NCBI GenBank assembly: GCA_003669585.1
Contig: QWOQ01000005.1
Span: 124,001 to 188,000, forward strand
DNA: 64,000 nt
Direction of reading: 5' to 3'
Origin: Planctomycetota bacterium
GTDB taxonomy: Bacteria > Planctomycetota > Planctomycetia > Pirellulales > UBA1268
Shown here in pieces: positions 38,533 to 62,311 of the stretch. Within the stretch, counting starts at the first letter, position 1; each line of letters begins with the position of its first letter. Position numbers and translations under genes: made by a program. A model generated the notes under the pieces. The model ran no database searches and was not told the origin of the DNA. It saw only the letters and a list, made by a program, of their open reading frames with translations.

Positions 38533-38540
38533 GGGAATGG

Positions 38541-39094: not shown

Positions 39095-39129
39095 CGCTTG
39101 TGGAAGTGCCTTTGACCGGGCTATCTTTT
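39095..39129 (+). repeat. Dispersed 35-bp motif, copy A (upstream of MFS operon)
   Basis: Starts with CGCTTGTGGAAGTGCC and continues TTTGACCGGGCTATCTTTT. It is 152 bases upstream of the MFS start and in the same orientation. This is the most divergent copy at its 3' end (CTATCTTTT instead of CTATCCTTT). Confidence 0.85.
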
Positions 39130-39281
39130 GCGTTCGGGACAATAGTGACTGTTCTTGAGTCTTGGTGTCGAGTCCATACTGACTTTTGTGGTTCGCTCTA
39201 CATCGCGAGTCGAAGCGGTCTTCGATTCCCAGTCACGATTCATCTGCTGGAACAAGACTCCAGTTTTCAACGGAATCTTCC

Positions 39282-40619: not shown

Positions 40620-40620
40620 G

Positions 40621-41649: not shown

Positions 41650-41700
41650 TCTCGTACTCCTTGCGACGATTCACGGTTCATCCACGAGAGGCACAGACCA

Positions 41701-42795
41701 ATGCGAGCATGGCGTTTTTACGGGTTCGGTGATTTTCGTCTCGAAGAAGTCGCTCCACCCGAGTTGCGACCGCGGCACGTGCTTGTGGAACCATTGTGCG
41801 TCCAGCCCAGCGTGACAGAGGCCCAGCTGGCGTTTGGGATTCCGACATTGGCGTATGATCGTGTCAAACGACGACTCGAAGCCGATGCTCCACTCCAGTT
41901 GTTTGGACACGAGTTCTGTGCCCGCATCATTGAAGTCGGTCCCGGTGTGACTCGCTTTCATGTCGGCGACCGTGTGGCGGCCCGTGCAAAGCTGCCGTGT
42001 GAGCAGTGCCTCTTGTGTTTGAGTGAGCGGAGTTCACTCTGTCGCACAGGTCCCGTGATCGGTTTCGACCAGCCGGGTTGTTTCAGTGAGATTGCGCTGC
42101 TCCCTGAGATTTCTCTGGTGCGTGTCGATGACAGCATCTCGGACAGCGAGGCCGCTTGCCTGCAATCTCTGAGCGATAGCGTGGCTGCAGTCGAGACCGC
42201 TCAAATTCAGATTGGCAATTCGATCGTGATCTTCGGTCAGGGCAGCATGGGGTTGGAGTGTTTGCAGATCGCAAGGATCAGCGGAGCAGGGCGAGTTATT
42301 ACGGTCGACGTGCGTGACGAGTCGTGCCGTATGTCGAAGGAGTTGGGGGCTGACTACGCTCTTAATGCAACCCGGTGCGATGTCGTGGCTGAGATTCGCA
42401 ACTTGACCGATGGCATTGGAGCTGACGTCGTATTTGAGTGCGCTGGAGGAAGTCCCAAGCAAGGGCTGGCTGGAACGCAAACGCTGCGGCAGGCCATCGA
42501 TACCGCGCGATCTGGCGGCAAGGTTATCGGGGTCTCCTGGTTCGGTGGTCCGCTGGAACTCGATGTCGATCTCCTGCGTGAGCGCAGCTTGCGCTACATT
42601 TTTCCAGACATCAGCACGCAGGCCCATCTCGAACACACCGTCCGCCTCGTCGCTTCGGGGCGGGTCAACCTGCGTCCCACGATTACGCACGTCTTACAGG
42701 GGATTGAGTCGGTGGCCGAGGCCTTTGAGATCACCGCGAACAAAGGCAAATACAAGGCGATTAACCCGGCCCAGGTGATGTTCCAGCGAGGATAA
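41701..42795 (+). CDS. Zinc-dependent medium-chain alcohol/polyol dehydrogenase
   Basis: A 364-residue MDR-superfamily dehydrogenase. The catalytic-zinc region is GHEFCARIIEVG (His, Glu), the structural-zinc loop is complete (CEQCLLCLSERSSLC, four Cys with spacing 3-3-8), and the Rossmann motif GQGSMGLECLQIA follows near residue 180. The position of the first catalytic Cys, normally in a CGSD-type motif near residue 40, is occupied by a VQPSVTEAQ segment (residues 37-45), so zinc coordination at the active site may differ from textbook enzymes. It oxidises a secondary alcohol or polyol with NAD. A GAGAGG ribosome-binding site lies about ten bases upstream. It is the third gene of the MFS-NHL-MDR unit. 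Confidence 0.88.
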   Translation: MRAWRFYGFGDFRLEEVAPPELRPRHVLVEPLCVQPSVTEAQLAFGIPTLAYDRVKRRLEADAPLQLFGHEFCARIIEVGPGVTRFHVGDRVAARAKLPCEQCLLCLSERSSLCRTGPVIGFDQPGCFSEIALLPEISLVRVDDSISDSEAACLQSLSDSVAAVETAQIQIGNSIVIFGQGSMGLECLQIARISGAGRVITVDVRDESCRMSKELGADYALNATRCDVVAEIRNLTDGIGADVVFECAGGSPKQGLAGTQTLRQAIDTARSGGKVIGVSWFGGPLELDVDLLRERSLRYIFPDISTQAHLEHTVRLVASGRVNLRPTITHVLQGIESVAEAFEITANKGKYKAINPAQVMFQRG

Positions 42796-42969
42796 ATCTA
42801 CCCATGCCCTGCCTGCGAGAAGTCACCGGAACCGTCATGCGTTCGCAGCGGTGCAGCCCGCCAGCAGGAGCCGTTTCACTTCGAATTCGAGGTTCGCAAG
42901 CAGACGAAGGCTAGGGATCGCTTCGTACGCGTGAAGATAAGAACCTGACACACCTCGGCGAACTGCTCC

Positions 42970-42987
42970 GTGCCGTGAACGGCCTCA
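42970..42987 (+). repeat. Upstream module shared by motif copies B and D
   Basis: GTGCCGTGAACGGCCTCA occurs here and, on the other strand, at 56511-56528. In both places it precedes the 35-bp core by 23-35 bases, and a shared CGTCAACCG-CCAA block directly abuts the core. Copies B and D therefore belong to a longer repeat of about 85 bases. Apart from this and copy B, the gap 42796-43148 shows no other feature. Confidence 0.8.
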
Positions 42988-43022
42988 ACCTTCACCCAAT
43001 CGACCGTTCGTCAACCGGCCAA

Positions 43023-43056
43023 CGCTTGCCGAAGTGTCGTTGACCGGGCTATCCTT
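43023..43056 (+). repeat. Dispersed 35-bp motif, copy B (upstream of exported Gfo/Idh gene)
   Basis: Reads CGCTTGCCGAAGTG, then TCGTTGACCGGGCTATCCTT. It ends 92 bases before the Gfo/Idh start codon at 43149, same orientation. It shares the CCG variant (instead of TGG) with copy D. Confidence 0.85.
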
Positions 43057-43148
43057 GGCTCCGCATTCGTTCGTCGTCTCCTTTCATTCGTCGGGCACTT
43101 CCAGATTTGTCTTTGGATTCGTCTCACCATCTTACAAAGGAGAGCCAC

Positions 43149-44219
43149 TTGATCCGTCACCTCATCACACTCGCAACGTTGATCGTCTTGGGACTTTTCT
43201 CCACCGTAAGTGTCCAAGCTGCGGATCTGATTCGCATCGGAATTCTCGGCATCGATAACTATGGGTCGGTCGCGTACACGGAATTTCTCAACAAGCCGCA
43301 TGCCGAGGGAGTCTTCGAGGGGATGCGAGTCGTCGCCGCGTATCCCATCGGCAGCGATGACTACCCAGAGAGCAAGACGCTGGGAGACAAGTGGAAAGAT
43401 CAGCTCTCGAAGATGTATCAGACTCCGAAAGACCCGAAGGACGCGGTGCCGCCGATCGATTGGGTCGATTCGCTCGACGAACTGTTGAAGCGCGTCGATT
43501 GCGTGATGATCTTCAGCCTCGACGCTCGACTGCATCGCAAACAGGCGGAATCGGTGCTGCGAGCAGGTAAGAAACTTTTTATCGGCCGGCCGTTGGCGTC
43601 TTCGCCGGAAGATGCGGTCGCGATCATGAAGCTCGCCGCCGAAACAAAGACCCCGTGCTGGAGCGGTTCACAGCATCGCTTCAGCACCGGCTTCGCCGGG
43701 ATGGTCAATCATCCTGAAGTCGGCAAGGTGATCGGCTGCGATGTCTATGGTGGCTGGGATCCGAAGACTCCCGAAGTGGATAAGTTCTGGCTTCCGCTGC
43801 ATAGCCTCGAAACGCTCTACACGATCATGGGGGGACCGGGCGTCGTGTCAGTGACGTGTGCTTCGACGCCAACCACCGAATCCATCACCGCCACTTGGAA
43901 AGACGGCCGCGTCGGAACGTACCGAGGCATCAAAGAGGGAGCGGTCAAATACAGCGCGACGGTCTTCGGCGACAAAGGAGTTTCGACGGCTGGCATCTAC
44001 GGCCACGGCATCCCGGTCATGGGAGTTGTCCCGACGAACGACGAATACGTCGGCTACAAACCGCTGGCCACCGAGATCGCCAAGTTCTTCAAGACCGGCC
44101 AAGTCCCGGTCCAGCCCGGCGAAACGCTGGAGATCTTCGCTCTGATGCAGGCCGCCGAAGAAAGTAAAGCCAAAGGCGGAGCCGTCGTGCCGCTGAAGAA
44201 CCTTTGGGAAACGAAGTAA
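43149..44219 (+). CDS. Sec-exported Gfo/Idh/MocA-family protein with altered EKP motif
   Basis: A 356-residue exported oxidoreductase-like protein. The signal peptide is LITLATLIVLGLFSTVSVQA; the mature Rossmann domain starts with LIRIGILGIDNYG, giving GIDNYG where GxGxxG is usual. The family's catalytic EKP is replaced: the corresponding segment reads KKLFIGRPLASS, so the lysine is an arginine and the glutamate a glycine. Export by Sec means the protein would have to bind its cofactor outside, which together with the altered motifs suggests a non-redox role such as sugar binding. The TTG start at 43149 is strongly supported by AAAGGAGAG eight bases upstream. It appears to be a single-gene unit behind motif copy B. 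Confidence 0.85.
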   Translation: MIRHLITLATLIVLGLFSTVSVQAADLIRIGILGIDNYGSVAYTEFLNKPHAEGVFEGMRVVAAYPIGSDDYPESKTLGDKWKDQLSKMYQTPKDPKDAVPPIDWVDSLDELLKRVDCVMIFSLDARLHRKQAESVLRAGKKLFIGRPLASSPEDAVAIMKLAAETKTPCWSGSQHRFSTGFAGMVNHPEVGKVIGCDVYGGWDPKTPEVDKFWLPLHSLETLYTIMGGPGVVSVTCASTPTTESITATWKDGRVGTYRGIKEGAVKYSATVFGDKGVSTAGIYGHGIPVMGVVPTNDEYVGYKPLATEIAKFFKTGQVPVQPGETLEIFALMQAAEESKAKGGAVVPLKNLWETK

Positions 44220-46721: not shown

Positions 46722-49082
46722 TTATCGCTTGAAGAACAGATCTGACAAAATCAGGTTCTCAATGACTGTGCGGAGTTTGTATTCCTCTTTCTGACTCGCG
46801 ACCGTGATGGCTTTGATCTGTGCTGTATCATCGATCGTCATGACTCTCCGCAGAGCATAGGTTGCGAGTTGTTCGACGAAGGCTTCGGCAAAGCGGTCGG
46901 TGTCTTGAGCGAGTAATTGTTTGAACTCCTCCGAGCCGTTGTAAGAACGGCCATCCATCAGTTGGCCACTGGCGTTGACGGGGGGGGAGATTCCTTGTCC
47001 TCCCGGCACTTGTTCGCTCGTTCGCCAGCGGCCAATGGCGTCGAAGTTGTCAAAGGCAAAACCCAACGGGTCGATCTTCTGATGGCACGAAGCGCAGGTG
47101 GCATGCGTGGCATGGGATTCTAGCTGCATGCGGATCGTAGCCTTCGGTTGGTCGCTGGGAGTCGGTGCGAGCGGCTCGACGTTGGGTGGAGGTGGAGGGG
47201 GAGTGCGGCCAAAGACAGCTTCTGAAACCCAAACGCCGCGATGCACCGGGCGATGCCGCGTGCCGTCCGATGTCAACGAGAGAATCGATGCCTGCGTCAG
47301 TAACCCGCCGCGATGCTCCTCGGGGCGGAGCAACACTCGCTGCAGGCTGCTGACCTCTGGACGAGGCAATCCATAGTGCATGGCCAGTCGCGGATTCATC
47401 ATCGTCCAATCCGAAACCAGGAATTCCCGGAGCTGCAGGTTCTTGGAAAACACTTCACCGAAATAGCCAGTTGTCTCCTGCACCATGCTCTGTTCGAGCC
47501 ACTTGTCGTAGTCGGGGAAGAGACTCGCATCGGGTGGGAACGCTCCAACACGGTGCAGCTGCAACCACTGGCGAGGAAACGATTCCGTGAAGCGACCGAT
47601 CTTGGGATCGGCAAGCATCCGCGTCAGCTGCGCCCGCAGAACTTCTGGACGATGGAGCGTCCCTTGCTGAGCGAGGCCGTACAGCTCGTCGTCCGGCATC
47701 GAACTCCACAGGAAGTAGGACAGCCGGGAAGCAAGTTCCCAATCGTTGACGGTGTCACGTCGTAGCGAGGGCGAACCCTCTTCCAGGTAATAAAAGTTCT
47801 TGGAGGACAGCACGGCGACCATGGCCGCCCGATACGCGGAACGGAAAGTCTCCCCGGCAGCGACTTCGCTTTCGATCAGTTGGATGTAGCGATTTAGGTC
47901 CGCATCGGTCACAGGACGCCGCCAGGCCAGAGTCACAAATCGGTTCAGGCTCTCGCGGGCTGCCTTCAGGTCGTCAGCCTGAGCGGGGATCAGTCCTGCA
48001 CGTTTCTTCTGATCCGATGCAGGAAGTATTGGACCCTCGGTCTCCACCCAATCGACAATCAGCAGCGGAAAGATCGATTGCCCAGCGTCGTTGAACAGCC
48101 GGTAGGCGGTCGGCTGATTCGAGCGGCTGTCAGTGGTGTTCACAAATGGGGACTGAGAGACACTGGGAGTCTGACCGTCGGCCAACATCCCCGGGGATTC
48201 GTTCATCACATTGAACTGGCCTTCGGGGAGAAACGTCTCGATTTCAATGACCGTCGGCTTGTCTTCCGGAGCGTCAACATCCAGACCGACGATCGAGCGT
48301 TTTAATTGATGATGCCAGAGCGCGAGATGCGGTAAACGGCCTTTGAAGGAGGGCAGGGCACTGAGCCGAATCCGAATTCGGTACAAGCCGGGCATGCTGG
48401 CGGTGACAAGGTGCTGCCCATGCCCTGGCCAAAGGGGCCAGCGAACCGGACCGACCAGACCTTGCCCCGCGCTGGCTTCGCGGCGTGTCTTCTGTGAAGT
48501 CGGTTCCTGGTCGGGAAAGGCCCGTTCGAGGACCGTCTCAGCTGCTCGAAAGTAACGATCGACGTGCGACGGAGAGAGTGTCAGCAACGAACCGATGCGG
48601 TCGAAACCATGCCAGCGCGGATCTTCGTTAAACGCTCCCGGCAGGTTCACATCGAAGTAGACACCAAGCAGGTCGTAGACCGTGTGTCCGTATTCCTCAC
48701 GGCTGAGACGGTAGTGCGAGACTGGCCCTCGCTGGGCCATCCTCGCGGCTTCGCCTTCCTGGATTCGCGTCGAGAGCCAATCGACAACTGCCCCCAGTTC
48801 TTGGGGCTTGGGCTGAGGTTCTTTCGTGGGCGGCATCTCGCCGGAGTTCAGCCGGAAGACGACTTCGGCCCATCGCTGCGCCGTGGCTTGAACGACGAAT
48901 TCGCGAGGGAGAGTATCGAGCCGAAACTTGCCTTCCTGCTTCTGAGCGTTATGACAGCGCAGGCAATGGGTCTCAATAAAGGGTAGGACCGATTGGTCAA
49001 ATCCGGCTACTCCATCGGCGGCGTTCGCTTCTGTGTTCACTGCGAACAACAGTGCCCACAGCGAGAGTCTCATGACGAACAT
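46722..49082 (-). CDS. DUF1587/DUF1592/DUF1588/DUF1585 haem-type exported protein (second copy in operon)
   Basis: A protein of about 786 residues, last gene of the operon that starts at 56385. It has a signal peptide ([16 protein letters not shown]), a planctomycete cytochrome-like segment with CLRCH near residue 40, DUF1587 ([20 protein letters not shown]), DUF1595 ([19 protein letters not shown]), DUF1592 ([19 protein letters not shown]), DUF1588 ([19 protein letters not shown] and the second haem-type motif CASCH) and DUF1585 at the end ([11 protein letters not shown]). It is closely similar over its whole length to the protein encoded at 53962-56385, so the operon carries two paralogues. 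ATG 49082 has GGAGGG upstream; ATG 49073 is an alternative. Such proteins are thought to be c-type-cytochrome-like surface enzymes; the reaction is unknown. Confidence 0.9.
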
Positions 49083-49141
49083 CGTCCCTCCAGTCGTCAT
49101 TGGCCATGTTTCGCGAACGTCTTCGAGGGCGTGTCTGTCGG

Positions 49142-50083
49142 TCACCATATGGCTCCCACCGGCTTCGCCCCAGCGTGCTTCATCCGAACGCTATAGAGTG
49201 AAGTTTTCGCCGTGATGAACAGTGTCTTGTAGTCCTCGCCACCGAAGTTGACGTTGGCGGGGCCTTCCGGGACTTCGATCTTCTCCAGCAGTTTGCCATC
49301 GGCGTTGTAAATAGTAACACCACCATGAGTCGTGTAGAGGTTGCCTAGCTCGTCAACGGTCATGCCGTCGCTTCCTTCCGAGATTGTGAAGAGCTTCTTG
49401 CCGAGTTGACCATCGTTATGAACCTCGTAGCAATGGACTCCGGCCGGGAGATTGTGGAATGCCGGATCGGGATGCTTGGGATGTCCACCCGTGTCGGCGA
49501 TGTAGAGGCGGCTTTCATCGGGCGAGAAGTTGATCCCATTCGGCATGGCCAGATCCTTGACGACAGGCTCGACCTTGCCCGTTGTCGGATCGAGCTTGAA
49601 GACCCAATGGCCGGGCAGTTCGCCGGGTCCGTTCAGTCCCCACGGCGGGTCGGTGAACCAGAGCGTGCCATCGGATTTCACCTCCACATCATTCGGAGAG
49701 TTGAATCGTTTGCCGTCGTATTTATCGGCCAGCACGGTGATGGAGCCATCCGCCTCGGTCCGCACAAGGTTGCGAGCGGCGTGCTGACAGGAGATGAGCC
49801 GCCCCTGAAGATCGAGGATGTTTCCGTTGGCTTGCTCGCAGGGACGAAACACCGACAGTCCGTCGCCTGCTTTCCACTGCATCAGTTTACTATTGGGAAT
49901 ATCAGAGAAGACGAGCGTCTTCTTCGCGGGAATCCACACCGGTCCTTCGGTGAATTTCATGTCGCCCGCGAGCTTCTGCACCTTCTCACCGGGGGCGATC
50001 AGTGATATTTTTTCGTCAGCGCGAGCCGAACCGGCGATCACGGCCAGCAGTAGAACGAGAGTGGTAAGAACAGACTTCATCAT
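49142..50083 (-). CDS. Exported SMP-30/gluconolactonase-family protein
   Basis: A 313-residue exported propeller with signal peptide VLTTLVLLLAVIAGSARA. Family blocks: KFTEGPVWIPAKKTLVFSDI (metal-ligand Glu), RFNSPNDVEVKSDGTLWFTD near residue 130, MPNGINFSPDESRLYIADTG near 180 and SEGSDGMTVDELGNLYTTHG near 240. It is clearly different from the SMP-30 protein at 840-1919. Members hydrolyse lactones; between two DUF1592 proteins and their partners it suggests that an oxidation product formed by the haem proteins is a lactone that must be opened. This is inference from gene order. Confidence 0.9.
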   Translation of the reverse strand: MMKSVLTTLVLLLAVIAGSARADEKISLIAPGEKVQKLAGDMKFTEGPVWIPAKKTLVFSDIPNSKLMQWKAGDGLSVFRPCEQANGNILDLQGRLISCQHAARNLVRTEADGSITVLADKYDGKRFNSPNDVEVKSDGTLWFTDPPWGLNGPGELPGHWVFKLDPTTGKVEPVVKDLAMPNGINFSPDESRLYIADTGGHPKHPDPAFHNLPAGVHCYEVHNDGQLGKKLFTISEGSDGMTVDELGNLYTTHGGVTIYNADGKLLEKIEVPEGPANVNFGGEDYKTLFITAKTSLYSVRMKHAGAKPVGAIW

Positions 50084-50132
50084 CGAGACCTCCAGCGGTA
50101 TAAGGGACGTTGCTTCAGGGTCAGAGGAGTTT

Positions 50133-51314
50133 TCACGGCAGGCGAAACAGGGTCGATCGCTGCTGCTCTTCCATCGTCTTGACTCGCTCTTCCGACGGCA
50201 TGGTCACGAAGAGCCAGTCGTGGCACTTCACGCGAACGACTCGACCGGGACGGTAACCATCGAGTAACTCGGTGAACTTCATGCGGACCTGAATGCCACT
50301 GCTGCCGGAGGGTGGGTTCTCGGATTCTTTCCACTCGATTACCTGGCCGATCTTCTTGTCACTGCGGTGAAACCACGTGCGCAGAGACTTCTCAGCCACA
50401 GCGACACCGAAGCCTTTGTCCTGCGTCGCTTTCAACTCGGCATACAGCGAAGGGTCCATGCCGCCGAAAAGCGTCAGCGTGATGATGCCCCCGCCGTAGT
50501 CATTGTCTTCCACGGAGTCGATCCAACCGGGAAGCCAGCGCTGCTTCTGATACTTCACATGACGGCGGCGCTGGAGATCGGTCGCGAACTTCCGACTTTC
50601 GTCGTCGAGCCAGAGTTCCGAGACGGTGAATTCCCTGTCTCGCCAACCGGGTGACCAGCCCAGGTTGAACTGCACGATTTGGTCTGGGGCGATATCAGTC
50701 AACTCGACCAGTGTGTGGCCTTTCCAGACTTTGGTGAGGTCGTCGATATCAAAGGTGGAGGGCGTATTGATGCCGTCCTGGGCCATCTGGCCTGCCGGGG
50801 CGACATGGATTTTCCCCTTCTTGGAATCAATCGAGACCACCTTCCAGCTCTGACCGCGACGCTGATAGAAGCTGAAGTCGTCTTCCAGCGACACGGCATG
50901 ATTCTGCTTGATTTCGTACCGCTCCATGTCTTTGGGTAGCGGCGGGATCGTGGCTTCTTCTCCAACTGGAGGCAGGTAGAAGTAACCGTGGACGTGAGTC
51001 CCGAGCGGGATGTCTCGTAGTTCAGCGGGAGCGCCGTTGAACGAGAGCATTCCATAGGGGAGCATCGCGAAATAATGCAGCGGCCCGCTGTGATAGCGAT
51101 CGTGAGGCTCATTGCCATCCAGCCGCAAGCCCCCCCGACGATTGACCGGGTCGATAATAACCAGCTCGCCTGCGAGGTACGTGCCGGTGTTCGGTGGCGG
51201 AAACTCGCCAGCCTTTGGGACGGGGTGAGCGGATTCCTGCGCAGTGGCAGGATCAAGGAGCAGACAGCACACAGCGGAACAAACGATCGACAGCAACCAA
51301 GAACGACGCATCAC
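50133..51314 (-). CDS. Exported protein of an unrecognised family, paralogue of 52751-53938 (Sec signal)
   Basis: I do not recognise this 393-residue protein. It has a Sec signal peptide (LSIVCSAVCCLLLDPATA), then PNTGTYLAGELVIIDPVNRR, RYHSGPLHYFAMLPYG, APAELRDIPLGTHVHGYFYL, SLEDDFSFYQRRGQSWKV, IAPDQIVQFNLGWSPGW, RWLPGWIDSVEDNDYGGGII and ESENPPSGSSGIQVRMKF. All these blocks recur in the protein at 52751-53938, with about 40-50 % identical residues by eye. Small beta-barrel (OB-like) folds are likely in the first third (GTHVHGYFYLPP). It overlaps the DUF1552 gene by four bases (ATGA), so translation is coupled. Genomic position implies a role with the DUF1592/DUF1552 proteins. Confidence 0.85.
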   Translation of the reverse strand: MMRRSWLLSIVCSAVCCLLLDPATAQESAHPVPKAGEFPPPNTGTYLAGELVIIDPVNRRGGLRLDGNEPHDRYHSGPLHYFAMLPYGMLSFNGAPAELRDIPLGTHVHGYFYLPPVGEEATIPPLPKDMERYEIKQNHAVSLEDDFSFYQRRGQSWKVVSIDSKKGKIHVAPAGQMAQDGINTPSTFDIDDLTKVWKGHTLVELTDIAPDQIVQFNLGWSPGWRDREFTVSELWLDDESRKFATDLQRRRHVKYQKQRWLPGWIDSVEDNDYGGGIITLTLFGGMDPSLYAELKATQDKGFGVAVAEKSLRTWFHRSDKKIGQVIEWKESENPPSGSSGIQVRMKFTELLDGYRPGRVVRVKCHDWLFVTMPSEERVKTMEEQQRSTLFRLP

Positions 51315-52687
51315 GACAACACCTCTGAGATCGTGCCGTTGCTGTCGGCGAATCTTTCCGTGGGGACATCCATCTTCTGAGCCATCGTCAGCAGCAAGTT
51401 ACTGAGGTGTGCCTTGCTGTTCACGGGGCTGTGGCAGATCGCATAGTGTTTGCCAGGAGTGTCGAGGTCATATGTGTAGCCTTCTGGCTTCGACATCGCG
51501 TTGTAGTCAATGTGTCGACCGTGCTTGATCCCCAGTCCACCGCCGCCCGCGAAGATGAGCGGTAGGTTCGCATTGCCGTGGCTGTGACCGAAGGCCATGC
51601 CACTGCCGTAGAGGGCCATCGTCGAATCGAGCAACGGTCCGTCCGCGTCCTGCACCTGGCTCAGTCGGTCGAGGAAGTAGCTGAACTGTTGAATGTTGAA
51701 CGTGTCACTCGCCGTCAGATCCTGCATCAGCTTAGGATTGGCGTTGTGGTGAGAGAGCGAATGGCGATCCTGCTTCACGCCGATTTCCGGGACCGATGGG
51801 CCAGTGCCTTCGTTGCCGGTGCTGAAAGTTGCTACGCGAGTCATGTCGGTCTGAAACGCCAGAACGATAATGTCGTACATCGTGCGCAGATACTCGCCGA
51901 GTCGTTCGAGGGAGATATCGCGATTGAGCTGCGACTCGACTGCCGGATCGACTTTGGGCCGAGGTGTATCGAGCCACTTGTCGGATCGCTCCGTGCGAAT
52001 CTCCACTTCGCGAACCGAAGTCAGATACTGCTCCAGACGGCCGCGATCCTCTTTCCCGAGTTGATCACCCAGAGACTGAGCTTCGCCCAGAATCGCGTCG
52101 AGAATGCTGCCTCGACGTTGCAGGCCACGCCGCTGCTTGGCAATGCCGCCTTGTGGTTCCGTGAACATATCTCGAAACACAACGCTGGGATTGCCTTGAG
52201 CCGGCAGGCCAATCCCATCGGCTGTACAGGCGAGGGAGTGTCCCTGATTACTCATCTCGATTGACGAGTAGCGGGTGAGCGGCGCAGTGACGTGCGTCAT
52301 CAGCTGGTCGACTGAGATCGTGTTTCGTTCCGATTGCCCGATCTTGCCGCCAGTGAGCCAGATACTGCTGCAGTTATGGTGATGTCCCAAGCCATGCGGG
52401 TGATGGAGCCCGCTGATCGGCGTGAGGCTCGCGCGATGTTTCTTTAGCGGCAGGAGAGACTTGGAAAACTGGTAATCCGCACCGGCCTGCTTGATCTGGA
52501 AGTCGAGCGTATTCACGCCGTTGGGCAGATAGATGAAGACGCTTCGTTTGGCACGCGTCCGGGTTTCTGCAGCAGCCAGCGGTTGCATGCAGTCAAGCAG
52601 AGGGAGCGCGACAGCAACTCCGAGTCCTCGCAAGAAGTGTCGACGGTGAAGCAGCCGTCGTTGCGAGAGGAAGTGAGCCATTTCCAA
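51311..52687 (-). CDS. DUF1552-family Tat-exported protein
   Basis: A 458-residue DUF1552 (PF07586-type) protein, the usual partner of DUF1592 proteins in planctomycetes. The N-terminus has a twin-arginine signal, HRRHFLRGLGVAVALPLLD. Typical blocks are FIYLPNGVNTLDFQI, GLHHPHGLGHHHNCSSIWLT, SVDQLMTHVTAPLTRYSSIE, YDIIVLAFQTDMTRVATFST and LYGSGMAFGHSHGNANLPLI. The His-rich segments suggest a metal site, as in related DUF1501 proteins. It overlaps the following gene by four bases and lies third in the operon that begins with motif copy D. The catalytic reaction has not been established. Confidence 0.92.
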   Translation of the reverse strand: MEMAHFLSQRRLLHRRHFLRGLGVAVALPLLDCMQPLAAAETRTRAKRSVFIYLPNGVNTLDFQIKQAGADYQFSKSLLPLKKHRASLTPISGLHHPHGLGHHHNCSSIWLTGGKIGQSERNTISVDQLMTHVTAPLTRYSSIEMSNQGHSLACTADGIGLPAQGNPSVVFRDMFTEPQGGIAKQRRGLQRRGSILDAILGEAQSLGDQLGKEDRGRLEQYLTSVREVEIRTERSDKWLDTPRPKVDPAVESQLNRDISLERLGEYLRTMYDIIVLAFQTDMTRVATFSTGNEGTGPSVPEIGVKQDRHSLSHHNANPKLMQDLTASDTFNIQQFSYFLDRLSQVQDADGPLLDSTMALYGSGMAFGHSHGNANLPLIFAGGGGLGIKHGRHIDYNAMSKPEGYTYDLDTPGKHYAICHSPVNSKAHLSNLLLTMAQKMDVPTERFADSNGTISEVLS

Positions 52688-52750
52688 TTCTCCTGTTCGA
52701 CTATGATCATCAGTACGACATGTTAGCCAGATTTCGCCACGAAGAACGGA

Positions 52751-53938
52751 TCATCGCTCATCCAAACTGTTGATTCGTGCTTCGGGCGGCAGTTTGACGT
52801 TTGGGAAACTGTTGGGGCGAAATCGAATGATTCGTCCCGCGCGATAGCCTTCGAGCAGACGGCTGAATTGTACACGCAGTTGCAATCCACTGCTGCCGGG
52901 CGGGGGATTCGGGGAGTCTTTGAAGTCGAGTACCGGGCCGTTTCTTGAATCGTGCTCCTGCCACCAAGTGCGAAGCGTCCATTCGGCAGCTGCCATCGAG
53001 GCACCTCCGCCGGGCTTGGCCTCGGCCCGAGCAGCATCGTACAACGTTTGATCCATTCCGCTGAATAAGGTGACCGAGACAATGCCGCCACCGCCTGGCT
53101 GATGCTCCACATGATCGACCCAGCCTGGCAGCCAGCGAGTCCGCATATGGCGAATATGGACCTGCCGTTGCACCTCGCGGGCCACATCTCGACTTTCCGG
53201 GTCAATCCAGACATCGGCGACGTGGAACATTCCGTTTTTCCATTCAGGAGCCCAGGTCAGATTCAACTGCATACTTTGGTCGGGTGCCAGATCCTTGAGT
53301 TCTCCAAACGCACGTCCGTTCCAGACTCGCGTACTGCGATCGATTTCAAACACACAATCGCCCGTCAATCCTGCGGAGGATGGCTGTCCTAATGAGCTGA
53401 CATTCAGCGTCCCCTTGCTGATATCAACAGCTGTGATTTTCCAAGACTGCCCCTGACGCTCATAGAAGCTGAAGTCGTCTTCCAGAGTCAGAGCCTGATT
53501 CTGTGCGGGAACATACTTGGACTGGTTTTTCTCGATCGGTGGGTATGCGGTAATCCCTTCAGCAGGCAACAGAAATGTGCCATGCAGCAGAGTGCCAATC
53601 GGAACGTCGCGAAGCTCTGCTGGTGCTCCGTGATAACGCACGGTTCCATAAGGCAGCATCGCGAAGCGATGGCTCGGAGCGGAGTGATAGCGACTATCGT
53701 CATTGTCACCGACCAGCCGGATCGCACCGCGTCGATTGACATGATCGACCGACACCAATTCTCCCGCCAGGGACACACCCGTGCCGAGTGCTGGAAACGT
53801 TCCAGGCTTGGGCACGACATCGGTCTCTGCGGCAAGAGATGGTGACGCGTCATTCAGCAACGGCAATGCAACCACCATCCCAAGCGATTGCAGGATGCGA
53901 CGACGGCTCACAGTGTGATCCCTGTTGACTTCATGCAT
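52751..53938 (-). CDS. Exported protein of an unrecognised family, paralogue of 50133-51314 (Tat-like signal)
   Basis: I do not recognise this 395-residue protein, but it is a paralogue of the one two genes downstream, sharing SLAGELVSVDHVNRRGAIRL, RYHSAPSHRFAMLPYG, GAPAELRDVPIGTLLHGTF, LEDDFSFYERQGQSWKI, RTRWLPGWVDHVEHQPGGGG and SPNPPPGSSGLQLRVQF. Unlike that paralogue it begins with a Tat-like signal (SRRRILQSLGMVVALPLL), so it may fold before export; the two family members thus appear to use different export routes. It lies 23 bases after the first DUF1592 gene. No catalytic motif is obvious; conserved His, Tyr and Trp clusters are the best candidates for function. Confidence 0.85.
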   Translation of the reverse strand: MHEVNRDHTVSRRRILQSLGMVVALPLLNDASPSLAAETDVVPKPGTFPALGTGVSLAGELVSVDHVNRRGAIRLVGDNDDSRYHSAPSHRFAMLPYGTVRYHGAPAELRDVPIGTLLHGTFLLPAEGITAYPPIEKNQSKYVPAQNQALTLEDDFSFYERQGQSWKITAVDISKGTLNVSSLGQPSSAGLTGDCVFEIDRSTRVWNGRAFGELKDLAPDQSMQLNLTWAPEWKNGMFHVADVWIDPESRDVAREVQRQVHIRHMRTRWLPGWVDHVEHQPGGGGIVSVTLFSGMDQTLYDAARAEAKPGGGASMAAAEWTLRTWWQEHDSRNGPVLDFKDSPNPPPGSSGLQLRVQFSRLLEGYRAGRIIRFRPNSFPNVKLPPEARINSLDER

Positions 53939-53961
53939 GTGGGCGACTTCGTCCTTCTCGA

Positions 53962-56385
53962 TCAGCGCTTTTGGAACAGGTCGGACAGGATCAGGTTCTC
54001 GATCAATGAGCGGAGCTTGTAACCTTCCGGCTTGCTGGCAGTTGCGATGGCCTTGATCTGCGGGGCATCGTCGATCGTCATCACACGTCGCAAGGCATAG
54101 GTGGCGAGCTGTTCGACAAACGCCTCGGCAAAATGATCGAGGTCCTGCAGCAAGAGATGTTTGAACTCGTCTGGTCCTTGGAATTGCTGGCCCTGGAGGA
54201 GGACGCCGCTGGCATTCACCAGTGGATTGCTGCCTTGCCCGGTGGCCACGTGCTCTTCCGTTCGCCAGCCACCAATGGCATCAAAGTTTTCGAAGGCAAA
54301 GCCGAGCGGGTCGATCTTCTGATGACACGAAGCACATGTGGAATGCGTGGCGTGTGCTTCGAGTTGCATGCGGATTGTGGCCTTGGGCTTGTCGCTGAGT
54401 GTTGGGGCCAGCGGTTCAACATTTGGCGGTGGTGGCGGGGGAGTTCGACCGAAGATCGCCTCCGACACCCACACTCCGCGATGCACTGGGCGATGACGCG
54501 TCCCATCCGAGGTAAGCGAAAGGATCGCGGCTTGTGTCAGCAGTCCGCCGCGATGATCCTCGGGCCGCAGCTTAACCTTCTGGAGGCCAGTGGTGGCAAG
54601 CGGCGGGAGTTGGTAGTGGGCTGCCAGTCGCGGGTTCGCCATCGTCCAGTCTGAGGAAATGAACTCGCGCAGCGAAAGATTCTGCGAGTCAACCTCATTG
54701 AAGAACGCCAGCGTCTCCAGGGACATACTTGTTTCCAGCCATTTGTCGTAGCCGGGATAAAGTCCCGGATCGGGCGGAAACATGCCGACGCGATGCAGTT
54801 GCAGCCACTGCTTCGGGAACGACTCCGTGAAACGACGATACTTTGAGTCCGCCAGCATCCGCCGGGTCTGTGATTTCAGTCCGTCCGGATGAGCGAGTGA
54901 ACCGGCTTGGGCGGCCGCCAGCAGTTCGTCATCGGGCATTGAACTCCAGAGAAAGTACGACAACCGTGAGGCCAGTTCCCAATCGTTGACCGTGTCGCGT
55001 TTCTGACTGACGGAGCCCTCTTCGAGGTAATAGAAGTTTTTCGACGTGAGGACGCCGACGAGCGCAGCTCGATAAGCCGTGTCGGGGGTTTCCCCCGCCT
55101 GGAGTTCGCTCTCGACGATCGTGACGTAGCGATCGACTTCGGCATCGGTCATGGGGCGTCGCCACGCGCGACTGGCGAATCGCTTCAGTTGAGTCCGCAT
55201 CTCGCCTGGGTCGATTTTCATCGCGGTGATATTTACGGGGAAGACATCCGAGCGTTTCTTTTGTTCCTCGTCGGTGATGATCGGACCTTCCCACTCGATC
55301 CAGTCAATGAGCAACATGGGGTAGATCGGCTCACCAGTATCCGTGAAGAGCAGATAGCCGGTTGGATTGATCCGGCGCATGTCGCGTGTGCTGGTAAAGA
55401 CACTGCCGCCAGCATGCAGAATGTTGGCCGTGTGATCCCCTTCACCTTGCTGCTTAAATGCACCGGCAACTTCATTGATCAAACTTAATCCCCCGGGCGA
55501 CAACGCGGATTCAAATTCGACGAGGATCGGCTTGTCTTCCGGAGCAAGAATATCTTGGTCGTAGATCGACTTCTTCAACTCCTGATGCCAAATCGAAAGG
55601 TGTGGTGCCGGTCCTTGTGGCGGTTGAAGACCGCTTAGTTGAATGCGAACTCGATAGTTTCCTGGCTGCGAGATGTTCATCAAATTCTCCCGACGACCGG
55701 GAAAGACCTGCCAACGAACGCTCCCCGTGATCTTTTGCTCGGCCAGTAGTATCTCGTGTCCCTGGTTGGCGTCGCGACGAACAATGGCAGACTTCGTGGG
55801 CTGATCCGGAAAGGCGAGATTGAACGACTTCTCAGCGGCGAGGAAGTAGCGGTCGATATGCGATGGGGAGAGCGAGAGCAACGCGCCGATGCGATTGAAG
55901 CCATGCCAACGCGGGTCGTCGTTGAACAGTCCGGGCTGGTTGACATCGAGATAGACGCCAAGCAGATCGTAGATCGTATGGCCGTACTCCTCGCGACTCA
56001 GTCGGTAGAGCGACACTGGCCCACGCTGGGCCAGCCTCGCGGCTTCGCCATCCTTGATCCGTGTCGACAGCCAATCGACGACCGCGCCGAGTTCTAAAGC
56101 CTTCGGTTGTGGTTCGTTCTTGGGCGGCATCTCACCGGAGTTCATCCGAAACACGATCTCGCCCCAGCGCTGAGCCGTGGCTTGATCGACGAATTCGCGA
56201 GGGAGAGTATCGAGCCGAAACTTGCCTTCCTGCTTCTGGGCATCATGACAACGCTGGCAATATGTCGTGAAAAACGGCTGAATGCTCGTGTCAAACCCAG
56301 CCGGTTTTGCCGCGAATGTCGTGCTCGCCGTGCTCGCAAATAGCAAGATTATCCACAGTGCCAGGGGCGACTTCTGTCGTATCAT
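53962..56385 (-). CDS. DUF1587/DUF1592/DUF1588/DUF1585 haem-type exported protein (first gene of operon)
   Basis: An 807-residue exported protein with signal peptide LALWIILLFASTASTTFA, N-terminal haem-type motif CQRCH followed by [14 protein letters not shown]1587 ([19 protein letters not shown]), DUF1595 (FASRAWRRPMTDAEVDRYV), DUF1592 ([19 protein letters not shown]), DUF1588 ([20 protein letters not shown], then CASCH and DPLGFAFENFDAIGGW) and DUF1585 ([20 protein letters not shown]). The ATG at 56385 begins the signal peptide; the frame to 56454 runs into motif copy D. It is a paralogue of the protein at 46722-49082 and is the first gene of a six-gene unit in which gaps are 23-63 bases or negative. 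Confidence 0.92.
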   Translation of the reverse strand: MIRQKSPLALWIILLFASTASTTFAAKPAGFDTSIQPFFTTYCQRCHDAQKQEGKFRLDTLPREFVDQATAQRWGEIVFRMNSGEMPPKNEPQPKALELGAVVDWLSTRIKDGEAARLAQRGPVSLYRLSREEYGHTIYDLLGVYLDVNQPGLFNDDPRWHGFNRIGALLSLSPSHIDRYFLAAEKSFNLAFPDQPTKSAIVRRDANQGHEILLAEQKITGSVRWQVFPGRRENLMNISQPGNYRVRIQLSGLQPPQGPAPHLSIWHQELKKSIYDQDILAPEDKPILVEFESALSPGGLSLINEVAGAFKQQGEGDHTANILHAGGSVFTSTRDMRRINPTGYLLFTDTGEPIYPMLLIDWIEWEGPIITDEEQKKRSDVFPVNITAMKIDPGEMRTQLKRFASRAWRRPMTDAEVDRYVTIVESELQAGETPDTAYRAALVGVLTSKNFYYLEEGSVSQKRDTVNDWELASRLSYFLWSSMPDDELLAAAQAGSLAHPDGLKSQTRRMLADSKYRRFTESFPKQWLQLHRVGMFPPDPGLYPGYDKWLETSMSLETLAFFNEVDSQNLSLREFISSDWTMANPRLAAHYQLPPLATTGLQKVKLRPEDHRGGLLTQAAILSLTSDGTRHRPVHRGVWVSEAIFGRTPPPPPPNVEPLAPTLSDKPKATIRMQLEAHATHSTCASCHQKIDPLGFAFENFDAIGGWRTEEHVATGQGSNPLVNASGVLLQGQQFQGPDEFKHLLLQDLDHFAEAFVEQLATYALRRVMTIDDAPQIKAIATASKPEGYKLRSLIENLILSDLFQKR

Positions 56386-56973: not shown

Positions 56974-58275
56974 TCAAATGCCCGTCAATCGCTCTGTCGA
57001 ATCGCCAAAACTGTCGAGTTCCAAGCCACCCCACTCCATCAGGCTGAGGAACAGGCTACACATGCGCCGGTTCGGCGAATCGAGGTAATCGAGCATGCGG
57101 CCACCGCGGAGTTTTCCCCCTGCGCCTCCGAGCAGGATGATTGGCAACTGCTTCGCGTCGTGACTGCCGTGCAACATGCTCGAACAGTGCATGATCGAGG
57201 TGTTGTCGAGCAGCGTGCGATCCCCTTCCTTGACTTCTGACATCCGTTCGCAGAGGTAGGCGAGCTGGGACGTGAAGAACTGGTTGAGTGGGATAAGTTC
57301 CGGCGGCTGGGTGTGGGCCATCTGGTGATGCTGATCTTTGGCGCCGCAGTGAGTGTGGGTTTCGGCGGAGCCGTCGTTGCAATACTTGAGGGTCGCGATC
57401 CGGGTGGTGTCGGTGCGAAAGGCAAGCAGCACGATGTCGTTCATCAGTTTCCAATACTCAGGAATCTCGGTGGGAATCCCGTCAGATGGCCGCGGGCGAT
57501 CAGGGGCGGCCAGAGTTGGCTGCCAGCCGTTGGCATCGCGCTGAGTGTCGGTTCTTTTGATGCGACCTTCGATCTCGTGAACGCTGCCCAGGTACTCTTC
57601 AAACCGCTGACGGTCCGAGAGGGAGAGCCGCAGACGCAGCGACTTCGCGTCTTCGAGCACGGCATCGACAACGCGGCGGTCGCCACGATTGCGATCGGTG
57701 CGGAAGAGTTGGTCGAAGGCCAGCGCAGGCCGCGTCTCGGTCCAGGTCGGCGACACCGCCGTGCTCCAGGAAATGTGCGAACTGTAGAGCAAGGGAAGCC
57801 CGTCCTGGAGTCCAGGGATCGGTCCTTCACAGCCTAGCACCAGCGACGGGATTCGCGTGCGGTCGCCAATTCGCTGAGCCATCACTTGATCAAAACTGAC
57901 GCCCGTGCGGACTTCGGCCCCCGACAACGGCGCGCCGCTGAGCATGTTCCCTGTCTGCATGCAGTGAATGGCGCTCTTGTTGGCCTGCTCGTTCCACAGG
58001 CCGCGAAGGAAGACCATCCGCTCTTTCCACGGCTCGAGCGGTTCTAGGCACGGCCCAAGTTCCATGCCTGCTCCCTCCCCCTTGGCCCACCAGTGATTCG
58101 AGTGGAAGCCCATGCCCGTGAAAGTGACGAGCGTGCGAATGGGCGGCTGATCGCCGGCGCTTGTTTTTTCGCCCGCTGCGAACGAGAGCGATTCGAGCCA
58201 GGGCAGAGCCATCGAAACGCCGAGTCCACGCAGCAGGGTGCGTCGCGAGAAAATGGAAGAAGGTGTGGTGGGCAT
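56974..58275 (-). CDS. DUF1552-family Tat-exported protein
   Basis: A 433-residue DUF1552 protein with Tat signal SRRTLLRGLGVSMALPWLE. Family blocks: LVTFTGMGFHSNHWWAKGEG, SGAPLSGAEVRTGVSFDQVM, LRLSLSDRQRFEEYLGSVHE, LLAFRTDTTRIATLKYCNDG and IMHCSSMLHGSHDAKQLPII. It begins 21 bases after the long DUF1592 gene and is the second and last gene of that two-gene unit. It is only moderately similar to the DUF1552 protein at 51311-52687, so the two operons are separate representatives of the DUF1592-DUF1552 theme rather than a recent copy. Confidence 0.92.
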   Translation of the reverse strand: MPTTPSSIFSRRTLLRGLGVSMALPWLESLSFAAGEKTSAGDQPPIRTLVTFTGMGFHSNHWWAKGEGAGMELGPCLEPLEPWKERMVFLRGLWNEQANKSAIHCMQTGNMLSGAPLSGAEVRTGVSFDQVMAQRIGDRTRIPSLVLGCEGPIPGLQDGLPLLYSSHISWSTAVSPTWTETRPALAFDQLFRTDRNRGDRRVVDAVLEDAKSLRLRLSLSDRQRFEEYLGSVHEIEGRIKRTDTQRDANGWQPTLAAPDRPRPSDGIPTEIPEYWKLMNDIVLLAFRTDTTRIATLKYCNDGSAETHTHCGAKDQHHQMAHTQPPELIPLNQFFTSQLAYLCERMSEVKEGDRTLLDNTSIMHCSSMLHGSHDAKQLPIILLGGAGGKLRGGRMLDYLDSPNRRMCSLFLSLMEWGGLELDSFGDSTERLTGI

Positions 58276-58296
58276 GAGAACGTCCTTTCGTGAGTG

Positions 58297-61200
58297 TCAG
58301 GGGAATGTAGCAGCAGCAGTGGACGCTGGGCGAATGCAGCGGAACTGCTCACTGTGAACAATCATGAGTAAGACATCCGACCAGCGGCCGCCGTCGACCA
58401 TGGTCTTCGTCAGTTCGTTGACCAGCTTCCGATCGGAAAGCTGCACAGCGCGTCCCAACGCGTAGCCCGTCAGTTTGTGAGCGAGTTCTCGCAGTAAGTC
58501 CTTACGCCGCGGACCGGCGATATAGTCGCGCAGGCCAACGAAGCCATCGATATCGACGCCGTCACGCGTGGTTGCCCTGGCATCACCAGGCTTCTGATCT
58601 TTGGCGGGCCGCAGTCGGCCGAGGGCGTCGAATTGTTCAAGCGTCATGCCGTAGGGATCGATGCGGACGTGGCAGCCGGCACAGGCTGCTTCCTGACGAT
58701 GCCGCTCGGTGATCTCACGCACGCTGAGTCCGTCGGGCGGAGTCTCCGGCAGCGGTGGCACGCCGGGCGGGACCTTCGGCAGCCGCTCGCCGATCAGCTG
58801 AACCACCCACGCGCCACGCTTGACGGGGCTCGTACGGGACGCCGCTGACTGCTTGGCGAGCACCGCGCCAAATCCGAGCAACCCGCCGCGACCGTAGGCT
58901 GAAACCTTCTCGACGCGACGCCACTGCGGACCGGTGACGCCGGGGATCCCGTAGTACTCGGCGAGGAGATCGTTGGCGACCACCGCGTCGGCTGCAATCA
59001 CGTCGCCGACCGGACGGTCGTTCACGAGCAAATCCGCGAAAAATCGCACCGGCTCTTCGGCCAGCGCGTCGCGCACAGCCGGCGTGAACTCGGGAAAGTG
59101 CTTCAGGTTCCGGCCGTGGTTGGTGACGAAGTCCCGCACGCCCAGCCAGCGGGCGCCGAACTCCGCGGCCATGCCCTGCACCCGAACGTCGGTCAGCATC
59201 CGTCGCAGTTGCTCCTCCATGACCGCCGGCTCGTGGAGCCGCGCGGCCTTCGCCCGCAGTTGGTCGTCGGGAATCGAGTCCCACAGTAGGAAACTCAGCC
59301 GCGTCGCCAGTTCGTCGCCCGAGACCGGCTGCCAGTGCGGTCCCGGCGCGGGTTGTTCCGCCCGATAGAGGAACCAGGGCGACGACAGGACGCGGGCCAT
59401 TGCGGCACGGAACGCCGGATCATGCTTGGCGCCTTCGGCACGGTCGGCGCGGTAAGACGTGAGGATCGCCTTCCGCTCGTCGGCGGCGAGTGGGCGGCGC
59501 CATGCTCGGGTAGCGAAGGCTAGTAGCGTCTCCAGATGCCCCGGCTCCGCAGCGACTTGAGTCGCGAGAAAGGCTTTCTCCTCACGTTTGATCTGTTCCT
59601 CGAACAGCTGGATGTAGAAGAACATGATCCGCGCGCCGTCGTTCGGCTTGCGGTAGTACTGCACGAGTCCCTCATACGCGATCGGGGTGGCGAACGCTTG
59701 CTCGCTCACAAACTCCAGTTCGCTCCACAGCCGGTCGATCTCAGCCCGGCCCGCCTCGTCGAGCAGGAGCCGACGCAGCGGCTCGTCTTCGCGGCGGTAC
59801 AGGAAGACGCTGCCTTGAGCGTCTCGCGGGATGATCGGTTGAAAGAGGACCGCTGGCGGGAAGAGAGCACGAAACTCCGCCGCCGGCCGCGCCCGTTCGG
59901 CGGCGACGCGTGGATGCACGATCTGCGCGGCATGCGGGTCGCCCACTTCAGCTTTGGCGACCGGCTCAGCCAGATTGCCGCCGCCGCCTGTGGCACCGAT
60001 CAGGAACGCTTCAACGGAGGCCGTTTCCGGACTCGCTTCGTCGAGGCTCACATCGGCGCGGAGAAACCGAGGCAGCGTGAGCGCCTTCTGCAGATCTGCT
60101 GGCAGTTTCGTCAGATCGATGATGACCTCGGTACCGGCAGCCGTGACGAGAGCAGACTTTGGCACCGGTCGCCCCTGCGGGTGATGGCCGAATTTGAGTC
60201 CCGATGCTTGCTCGACGACCGCCGCCAGTTCTGGATGCTCCGCAAACACCAGCGGCGGACCGTCACCACCTTCCAGTCGCAGCCGGTCCCAGACCACAAA
60301 GGTGTTGGGCTGAGCTGGCAACGCAACCATACGGAAGAGCGGTTCACGGGCGGCGCCTTGCACCCGCTCACGAGCGACCACGCGACGCAGATCCTCCCAG
60401 GCGGGAAAGCCATTGCCAACCGCCATGGCCGCATTCTTCCCGTAGTTGCCTTGAAACAACTGGTCCTGCGCGGCCTTGATCGCCGCCAAGACCGGTGCCG
60501 GATCGGTGGTTGCCTCCCGCCACTTTTCTCGAATGTGGTCGAGCAGTGCCGGAGCCGGACCGGGATCCGGCAGATCAGTGGACGCACTGCCCAGATCGGC
60601 CAGCGCCTGCCCCAAGTCTGGAGCCGCGACATGTGACAGCTCGAACGAGACTCCGTCGCCACCCGAGGGATGGGCATCGGCAACGCGGCCCGCGACCACT
60701 AACTCACCAGCAATCGGACTCGTCCAGGCGATCGCCACAGGTCGTTTCTGTCCGGGATGCACGAAGACCGATCGTGCGGGCAATGTCGTCCATACACTAA
60801 TTGGTTCCGCAGCGGAGTTCACGAAGACCGAGGGTTCGGAACCGAGGCTCCACGATTTCAGTTCGGACTTCCCTGCGATACTGTCGCGGCGTTCGGTGAG
60901 GAACGTCGGGAGGGATGTCGTTTCCAAAAAGCTCCAGCGGGCCTCGTGCTTGTCCGACCAGGGGTTTCCCATCAGCAGATTGGGCACCAGATCGGCGACG
61001 CTCCAGGTTCGCCCATCAGCGGCTGTTTCGTGGATCGTCCATTCGACGAGCGTGCTGTCGGCCCCGTGATTTTCGTTCGGAAGCACAGTCAAGAGGAGCA
61101 GTTCGCCACGCTCGACCAAGACCTTGTGCTCGAAGGGAACAGAGCCCCCTTCCGCAACTTTGGACTCCGCAAGGACACGTTTCGACGATGCCCAACGGGA

Positions 61201-62187
61201 CTCGATCTTTGGCAAAGCGGCCTTGCGTCGTTGCTTCTCGGCTTCAAACTGGGCCGTCTTCTCCCGCCACTGCTTCATCCGAGCATCGACTTCCGCTGAC
61301 GGTAACGACGAGGCCGTCGTGCCGCTGAGCCCCGCCCAAAGCGCGGTCAGGTAAGTCGTATTAAGCTTCTCCTCGGCGGCCACTCCAGCGATGTCGGCGG
61401 CCCCGCCGCTGGTGAACTTGTCGCGGTAGCGCAGGGTCGCCGCGAGGTGCGCTGCTAGCGGCGGCTCTCCATTGGGTCCGGCATAGCGAGCGTGGAAACT
61501 GCGGAGCGGCTTGAGAGCCTCCTCAGTCCAATCCGGGCGTTCGGTGGAAGGGGAAAATCGGAAACCGCCGGGCAGGAGCACTACCCGCGCGGCGACGTCA
61601 CGAGCGGCGTGGTGATAGCGTTCGACCAGTTCGGGCGTGACCGGCATCGCCTCCCCGACGTTGGCAAAGCCCTCGCCGCCGACGCTGTCGACGGGAAACT
61701 CGCGAGCCTGTGTTGGTCGCATGTCTACGCCGGTGAGATCACGGACCGCGTTGTCGTACTCCGTGTTGCTCAGTCGACGCAGCGTGACCTGCCCGGGATC
61801 ACCGGCCCGCGCGGCCGCCTCGGCATCGAGTGCCGCCGTGATCCAGCCCAGCAGTTGCTCCCTCTCGGCCTCACTTGGCTGCGGCGCGTCTTTCGGCGGC
61901 ATGTCGCCCAGTCGCAACCGGTCGGCAACGTCACCGAGCAGTTTGGGCTTGGCGAGTATCGCCTGGGCGGAGCCAAAGCCCGTGAGATCGAGATCGTTAT
62001 CGTTGGGCATTTCCCCGTGGCAATTCCCGCAGGACCTGACGAGTAGCGGCTGGATCTGTGTGGTATACGTTTGCGCGAGGTCGTCTGCACTATCGGCAGA
62101 CGCGGCCGCGAGTGTGAGAGAGGCAATAAGCAGCACAGCGCAAGCCGTCCGGTTCCGCCGTGCCCCTACTTCTATGAGGCATCGCAT
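58297..62187 (-). CDS. Long DUF1592-type haem-containing exported protein
   Basis: A 1296-residue relative of the DUF1592 proteins, about 500 residues longer. It has a signal peptide (TACAVLLIASLTLAAASADS), a haem-type motif CGNCH followed by DMPPKDAPQPSEAE, DUF1587 (RRLSNTEYDNAVRDLTGVDM), an inserted region of roughly 550 residues with no recognised motif, then DUF1595 (FATRAWRRPLAADERKAIL), DUF1592 (LATRLSFLLWDSIPDDQLR), DUF1588 (CAGCHVRIDPYGMTLEQFDA) and DUF1585 (HKLTGYALGRAVQLSDRKLV). ATG 62187 has AGGAG eight bases upstream; the GTG at 62268 would add 27 residues without family likeness. It forms a two-gene operon with the DUF1552 gene behind motif copy E. Confidence 0.9.
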   Translation of the reverse strand: MRCLIEVGARRNRTACAVLLIASLTLAAASADSADDLAQTYTTQIQPLLVRSCGNCHGEMPNDNDLDLTGFGSAQAILAKPKLLGDVADRLRLGDMPPKDAPQPSEAEREQLLGWITAALDAEAAARAGDPGQVTLRRLSNTEYDNAVRDLTGVDMRPTQAREFPVDSVGGEGFANVGEAMPVTPELVERYHHAARDVAARVVLLPGGFRFSPSTERPDWTEEALKPLRSFHARYAGPNGEPPLAAHLAATLRYRDKFTSGGAADIAGVAAEEKLNTTYLTALWAGLSGTTASSLPSAEVDARMKQWREKTAQFEAEKQRRKAALPKIESRWASSKRVLAESKVAEGGSVPFEHKVLVERGELLLLTVLPNENHGADSTLVEWTIHETAADGRTWSVADLVPNLLMGNPWSDKHEARWSFLETTSLPTFLTERRDSIAGKSELKSWSLGSEPSVFVNSAAEPISVWTTLPARSVFVHPGQKRPVAIAWTSPIAGELVVAGRVADAHPSGGDGVSFELSHVAAPDLGQALADLGSASTDLPDPGPAPALLDHIREKWREATTDPAPVLAAIKAAQDQLFQGNYGKNAAMAVGNGFPAWEDLRRVVARERVQGAAREPLFRMVALPAQPNTFVVWDRLRLEGGDGPPLVFAEHPELAAVVEQASGLKFGHHPQGRPVPKSALVTAAGTEVIIDLTKLPADLQKALTLPRFLRADVSLDEASPETASVEAFLIGATGGGGNLAEPVAKAEVGDPHAAQIVHPRVAAERARPAAEFRALFPPAVLFQPIIPRDAQGSVFLYRREDEPLRRLLLDEAGRAEIDRLWSELEFVSEQAFATPIAYEGLVQYYRKPNDGARIMFFYIQLFEEQIKREEKAFLATQVAAEPGHLETLLAFATRAWRRPLAADERKAILTSYRADRAEGAKHDPAFRAAMARVLSSPWFLYRAEQPAPGPHWQPVSGDELATRLSFLLWDSIPDDQLRAKAARLHEPAVMEEQLRRMLTDVRVQGMAAEFGARWLGVRDFVTNHGRNLKHFPEFTPAVRDALAEEPVRFFADLLVNDRPVGDVIAADAVVANDLLAEYYGIPGVTGPQWRRVEKVSAYGRGGLLGFGAVLAKQSAASRTSPVKRGAWVVQLIGERLPKVPPGVPPLPETPPDGLSVREITERHRQEAACAGCHVRIDPYGMTLEQFDALGRLRPAKDQKPGDARATTRDGVDIDGFVGLRDYIAGPRRKDLLRELAHKLTGYALGRAVQLSDRKLVNELTKTMVDGGRWSDVLLMIVHSEQFRCIRPASTAAATFP

Positions 62188-62311
62188 CAGATTCGCTCCT
62201 TGGCTCTCGATATGCTTGCACAGTTCGGCCGTCACCGCAGCGACATCAACTTTTGCCAGTTTGTCCACAATGAGCTGGTGGCTTTCGACTCCGGCCTTCC
62301 ACTCTTAGGAT

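Follow-up and report, generated by a model that had tools for sequence, protein, structure and literature searches.

Genes and Features of the Operon

The stretch of DNA that was analysed (the window, 64,000 nucleotides) is part of a 4.27 Mb planctomycete assembly, with Planctomycetaceae as its nearest named relatives, and carries, at 46722–56385 of the minus strand, an operon of six genes. According to the open reading frames of the window, the six co-directional genes follow the order DUF1592a – Xa – DUF1552 – Xb – SMP-30 lactonase – DUF1592b, exactly as the original prediction had described. The first gene, DUF1592a (53962–56385), encodes an exported protein with two haem-c motifs and the Pfam architecture PSCyt1-PSD3-PSD5-PSD4-PSCyt3-PSD2; its open reading frame reaches 56454, and the likely start is the ATG at 56385, where the signal peptide begins. 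The last gene, DUF1592b (46722–49082), encodes another haem protein, whose identity with DUF1592a is 65%. Both copies contain PSD3, PSD5, PSD4, PSCyt3, and PSD2 in this order, above the curated cut-offs. DUF1552 (51311–52681; HXXSHH family, PF07586, E 4.6e-80) has a twin-arginine signal, a likely start at the ATG 52681 and not at the TTG 52687, and a low-confidence model that suggests an alkaline-phosphatase-superfamily fold; it belongs to the clade of DUF1552 genes that are followed by X. The lactonase gene (49142–50083) encodes an SMP-30/gluconolactonase-type beta-propeller with a signal peptide and a match to the SGL/SMP-30 family of Pfam (E 1.8e-44).

The two remaining genes, Xa (52751–53938) and Xb (50133–51311, with the likely start at the ATG 51311), encode the family X proteins. 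The family is indeed unrecognised, as neither copy has a significant match in Pfam or NCBIfam, and the identity between the two copies, estimated by eye at 40–50%, was measured at 47% over 388 residues (E 2e-130). Tandem small beta-barrels are predicted for Xa. Its export signal is Tat-like (RRRILQSLG) and that of Xb is Sec-like. This difference, already pointed out for the two copies, is seen in the window but is not conserved, the Xb protein of locus L008 being Tat-like and the Xa protein of L006 Sec-like. A meaningful role of the Tat/Sec difference was therefore rejected, because the orthologues do not keep it. The scan for Tat signals was heuristic and of low sensitivity, and it was employed only as support.

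With the corrected starts, the gaps along the operon are 23, 69, -1, 49, and 59 bp. From the two overlaps that had been proposed, the one between the DUF1552 stop and the Xb start is real (one base, TGATG), but that of the lactonase with DUF1592b is probably only apparent, because the signal peptide of DUF1592b begins at its likely start, the ATG 49082.

Several other genes of the window deserve mention. A second DUF1552–DUF1592 pair (56974–62268, encoding 433 and 1323 aa) lies on the same strand, 520 bp upstream of the operon; it has no X of its own, and its two genes are from other subfamilies. A PSCyt1-PSCyt2-PSD1 (DUF1549/DUF1553) protein of 1294 aa is encoded at 20577–24461, and the gene at 26589–29096 specifies a protein of 835 aa that contains a cytochrome c domain of the RoxA-like type (E 1.2e-16). 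The region 31999–44219 is carbohydrate-related, with GH88, an RND transporter, an MFS sugar transporter, an NHL propeller, a Zn-dehydrogenase and, by eye, a Gfo/Idh-like oxidoreductase. A further SMP-30/NHL-type propeller is found at 840–1919.

Family X Accompanies One Subfamily of DUF1552 and DUF1592

The linkage of family X was studied in a sample of 199 genomes of the class, in which the DUF1552 genes matching the window copy at E <= 1e-125 were taken as clade DUF1552 (n = 64). In 62 of these 64 genes, X is located directly downstream on the same strand, with a gap of 0–411 bp. The two others are a contig end (L141) and a real miss (L140). All the 46 class genomes with clade DUF1552 carry X, and clade DUF1552 is absent from the genomes without an X match. 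Four more class genomes contain X-like matches that are only fragments, a solo relative, or L109. The original prediction had left it to a survey of this kind whether X might occur mainly away from DUF1592 and DUF1552; it was found beside them almost without exception.

In a sample of the phylum, X is present in 17 out of 294 genomes. In the loci extracted together with their flanks, it neighbours DUF1552, DUF1592, or both and is encoded on their strand, except in L044 (contig end), L060 (pseudogene fragment), and L065 (weak partial match). A second panel covering family, order, and class again placed X beside DUF1552/DUF1592, and the linkage is kept in different families and also in MAGs that bear the label Verrucomicrobiota. 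The module was seen in the orders 1592-1552-X, 1552-X-1592, 1592-X, and 1592-X-1552-X-SGL-1592, the first of them being the commonest among the phylum loci. The six-gene layout with two X genes, on which the original prediction was built, is consequently not the basic unit, which is DUF1592-DUF1552-X. Outside the Xb lineage, the comparison of 94 flanking genes of the phylum sample with Pfam revealed no fourth constant partner; since no other gene recurs there beside the module, the neighbours give no pointer to the substrate. X is an exported bacterial family not described before and, at the gene level, its condition of dedicated partner of one DUF1592–DUF1552 subfamily is well supported.

On the side of X, the true exceptions are the full-length genes of L109 and L142, away from DUF1592/DUF1552. 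The former (L109:2390-3539) adjoins DUF1549/DUF1553, DUF1501, and a seven-bladed lactonase. Solo exported relatives of about 330 aa also occur away from DUF1592/DUF1552 (L118:6185-7177, L119:6992-7984, L120:7719-8658, and L121:7033-8028), and this branch is alignable with X. In L059, a relative from the solo branch (6943–7950) lies inside a module, between DUF1592 and DUF1552. Fusions of two X units, about 700–850 aa long, were noticed in L057, L058, L059, L061, L063, L096, L117, and L123.

Co-inheritance of the Three Partners

The X-positive genomes contain 5–36 DUF1552 matches each, a number far above that of X, and most of these matches are without X; the window genome has 10 DUF1552 and 12 PSD4 matches. 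The tree of DUF1552 comprised 55 domains, including 20 from loci chosen away from X, which lack X by choice and serve only to show placement in other clades. All but one of the 30 X-linked DUF1552 fall in a single clade (100/100) that has no X-less member, and the thirtieth is part of an additional pair that lies inserted within the operon of L006. Similarly, 30 of the 32 X-linked DUF1592 are in one clade of 31 (100/100), whose row labelled as X-less (L008_1596) comes from a locus that carries X further on. The tree of X gives the same groupings as those of DUF1552 and DUF1592. In two genomes with two modules (G121 and G205), the matching partners stay in separate clades in all three trees. 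The pairwise distances in 39 modules are correlated (X–1552, r 0.82; X–1592, r 0.87; 1552–1592, r 0.78; permutation maximum 0.28 for the two comparisons with X and 0.39 for all three), and these correlations reflect in part shared descent rather than contact. The idea of a complex or pathway, present in the original prediction, is strengthened by this co-inheritance and by the matching trees. The extracellular and oxidative character that it gave to such a pathway is putative; haem motifs and a lactonase are present in the operon.

Origin of the Doubled Operon and of the Lactonase

In the tree of X, Xa shares its group with L004, L005, L006, and the X that comes first in L008. The group of Xb contains the second X from each of L006 and L008 as well as L009, with L042/L043 at a greater distance. 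In the DUF1592 tree, DUF1592a goes with the Xa-adjacent copies of L004, L005, and L006, and DUF1592b with the Xb-adjacent copy of L006. From these groupings, the window operon can therefore be read as DUF1592a-Xa plus DUF1552-Xb-SGL-DUF1592b. The DUF1552-Xb-SGL-DUF1592 half stands alone in L103, and in L101 and L102 it has one more exported gene ahead of DUF1592, which by Pfam contains leucine-rich repeats; these three loci are from three genomes of a family other than that of the window. Beside this set, L101:10870-12741 and L103:5581-7506 encode an exported protein that is leucine-rich-repeat by Pfam and, by eye only, SGNH-hydrolase-like at its N-terminus.

The possibility of a lactonase exclusive to the window was rejected with these three more loci of the class sample. 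DUF1552-Xb-SGL recurs in another family, but the enzyme is an accessory of one sublineage, since an SGL lactonase with the module recurs in the Xb lineage only. For this lineage alone, it would argue for a sugar-lactone product.

Features of the Three Proteins

All 39 linked DUF1592 proteins have exactly two CxxCH motifs together with an MPP motif. The linked DUF1552 proteins have HxxSHH and an N-terminal RR, likewise in 39 of 39, which makes Tat export likely throughout. The PDB entries that come first for the DUF1552 model (pLDDT 61) are enzymes of the alkaline-phosphatase superfamily, with weak E-values (best 0.037), and they tentatively suggest this fold for the protein. A sequence search of the PDB with X, DUF1552, and DUF1592 gave no significant relative, and a search of the available literature found no published function of DUF1592 or DUF1552.

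The model of X (mean pLDDT 62, from 10 sequences) presents beta-barrel segments, and its Foldseek matches are IF2-type barrels and CusF (best E 2e-3, none below 1e-3), which suggests an arrangement of tandem OB/CusF-like barrels. In our reading, three OB-like barrels may be recognised from the strand pattern and a repeated turn motif (ELRDVPIG, ELKDLAPD, and LLEGYRAG). In a profile comparison of internal repeats, barrels 1 and 2 came out in register, without significance. The residues D65, R69, R74, D111, D154, W166, and W244 are conserved, and H261 is found in 38 of 39 sequences, in a helix.

A Proposed Dedicated Third Component and Its Possible Roles

Our best explanation, in which we place about even confidence, is that X serves a single DUF1592–DUF1552 subfamily as its dedicated third component, and that the window contains a doubled form of this module to which a lactonase has been joined. 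Since X almost always adjoins this one subfamily, the three proteins very likely cooperate in the cell envelope of planctomycetes and certain relatives, and they likely associate in an exported complex of redox or hydrolytic function. The gene association is strong; the chemistry we infer. DUF1552, exported already folded by the Tat route and carrying a metal, would be the subunit with the alkaline-phosphatase fold that acts on the substrate. DUF1592, exported through Sec, would take up two c-type haems and carry electrons. X would be an exported and probably non-catalytic accessory of tandem OB-like barrels that might hold the partners together or present the substrate. In the Xb lineage, a sugar might be oxidised to a lactone, which the SMP-30-type enzyme would then open. 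This scheme presumes a physical complex, the predicted fold of X, a metal in DUF1552, a redox function, and a sugar or lactone as the substrate. A further-reaching version, in which di-haem DUF1592, metal-dependent DUF1552, and multi-barrel X make up one exported redox enzyme of three subunits that oxidises a carbohydrate in the periplasm, the product passing to the lactonase in one lineage, is for the moment rather unlikely.

Other readings give X or the doubled operon a different meaning. The operon might encode a mixed complex, in which one DUF1552 serves two DUF1592–X pairs whose substrates perhaps differ. Xa and Xb and their adjoining DUF1592 copies do belong to different groups, for which L006 supplies orthologues (as does L008 in the case of X), and L006 has two X and two X-clade DUF1592 for one X-clade DUF1552; nonetheless, mere duplication could explain such an operon and only three loci of this kind were seen, so that we regard the proposal as possible but somewhat unlikely. 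An unlikely, although conceivable, function of X would be that of a carbohydrate-binding-like subunit supplying the haem/metal enzyme pair with polysaccharide or sugar. In this sense, X keeps Asp, Arg, and Trp residues, fused double-X forms exist in some genomes, the surroundings of the operon are carbohydrate-catabolic (GH88, sugar transporter, Zn-dehydrogenase) and, in the available text of PMC5615132, PSCyt genes carry CBMs and are located near sulfatases. However, X has no similarity to known carbohydrate-binding families, and no constant carbohydrate gene accompanies the module in the phylum sample.

The resemblance to CusF raises the idea that X binds or delivers metal (copper) in the periplasm and loads it into DUF1552 or DUF1592, which we find doubtful. 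The CusF structures are among the top small-domain Foldseek matches of X (TM by target 0.67–0.74), but small barrels in general give such a match and those of IF2 score equally. At the sequence level, the CusF_Ec profile had no match in 35 X proteins, and one solo relative matched it (E 3.8e-4, 20.7 bits) under the curated cut-off of 27. His and Met are frequent in the first barrel (H90 in 26, M94 in 30, H103 in 31, and H119 in 34 of the 39 sequences), but they are never invariant; H261 is outside this set, and the 39 aligned sequences contain no conserved Cys. Finally, genome neighbours may persist through descent, and trees alone are no proof of interaction; X could thus have been kept by ancient linkage and vertical inheritance without any joint function. 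This seems very improbable, because the linkage outlasts changes of gene order, duplications of the whole set within a genome, family boundaries, and the step to MAGs labelled Verrucomicrobiota, and because no other gene shares it.

In planctomycetes and verrucomicrobia, the PSCyt/PSD proteins and their partners rank among the most abundant exported proteins that still lack an explanation. The near-exclusive pairing of X with one clade defines a three-gene unit and hence offers a handle on the whole protein class. If the three-subunit redox enzyme were confirmed, it would be the first functional unit named in the planctomycete PSCyt/PSD complement.

Comparison with Known Systems

The available text of PMC5615132 describes PSCyt genes in PVC bacteria as genes without an assigned function that have conserved uncharacterised neighbours. 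The PSCyt3/PSD genes treated there, of the DUF1592 type, are like those of the operon in encoding an exported haem-c protein, in having a conserved neighbour, and in the many copies per genome. The difference is that its main text, in the part available, gives one neighbouring family per PSCyt type and mentions no third partner restricted to a subfamily. A parallel system of haem protein and partner, DUF1549/DUF1553 (PSCyt2/PSD1) with DUF1501, exists in the same genomes, but it is made of other Pfam families and does not usually have X as a neighbour; one X gene, that of L109, lies in such a cluster.

With CusF and other small OB-fold barrels, the resemblance is a weak one of fold that spans some 80 residues in the X model. 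X is about 390 aa long, with several tandem barrels predicted; it has no significant sequence match and shows no invariant Met/His ligand set of the CusF type. The alkaline-phosphatase superfamily (LtaP, choline sulfatase, and phosphonoacetate hydrolase) provides the leading matches of the DUF1552 model, with E-values of 0.04 and above, and shares with it His-rich conserved motifs, although the sulfatase-type C/S-x-P-x-R pattern is present in only 2 of 39 DUF1552 proteins. The window lactonase (P0006) aligns over most of its length with two SMP-30 gluconolactonases of the PDB, 3e5z (E 3.6e-47) and 3dr2 (E 2.8e-42).
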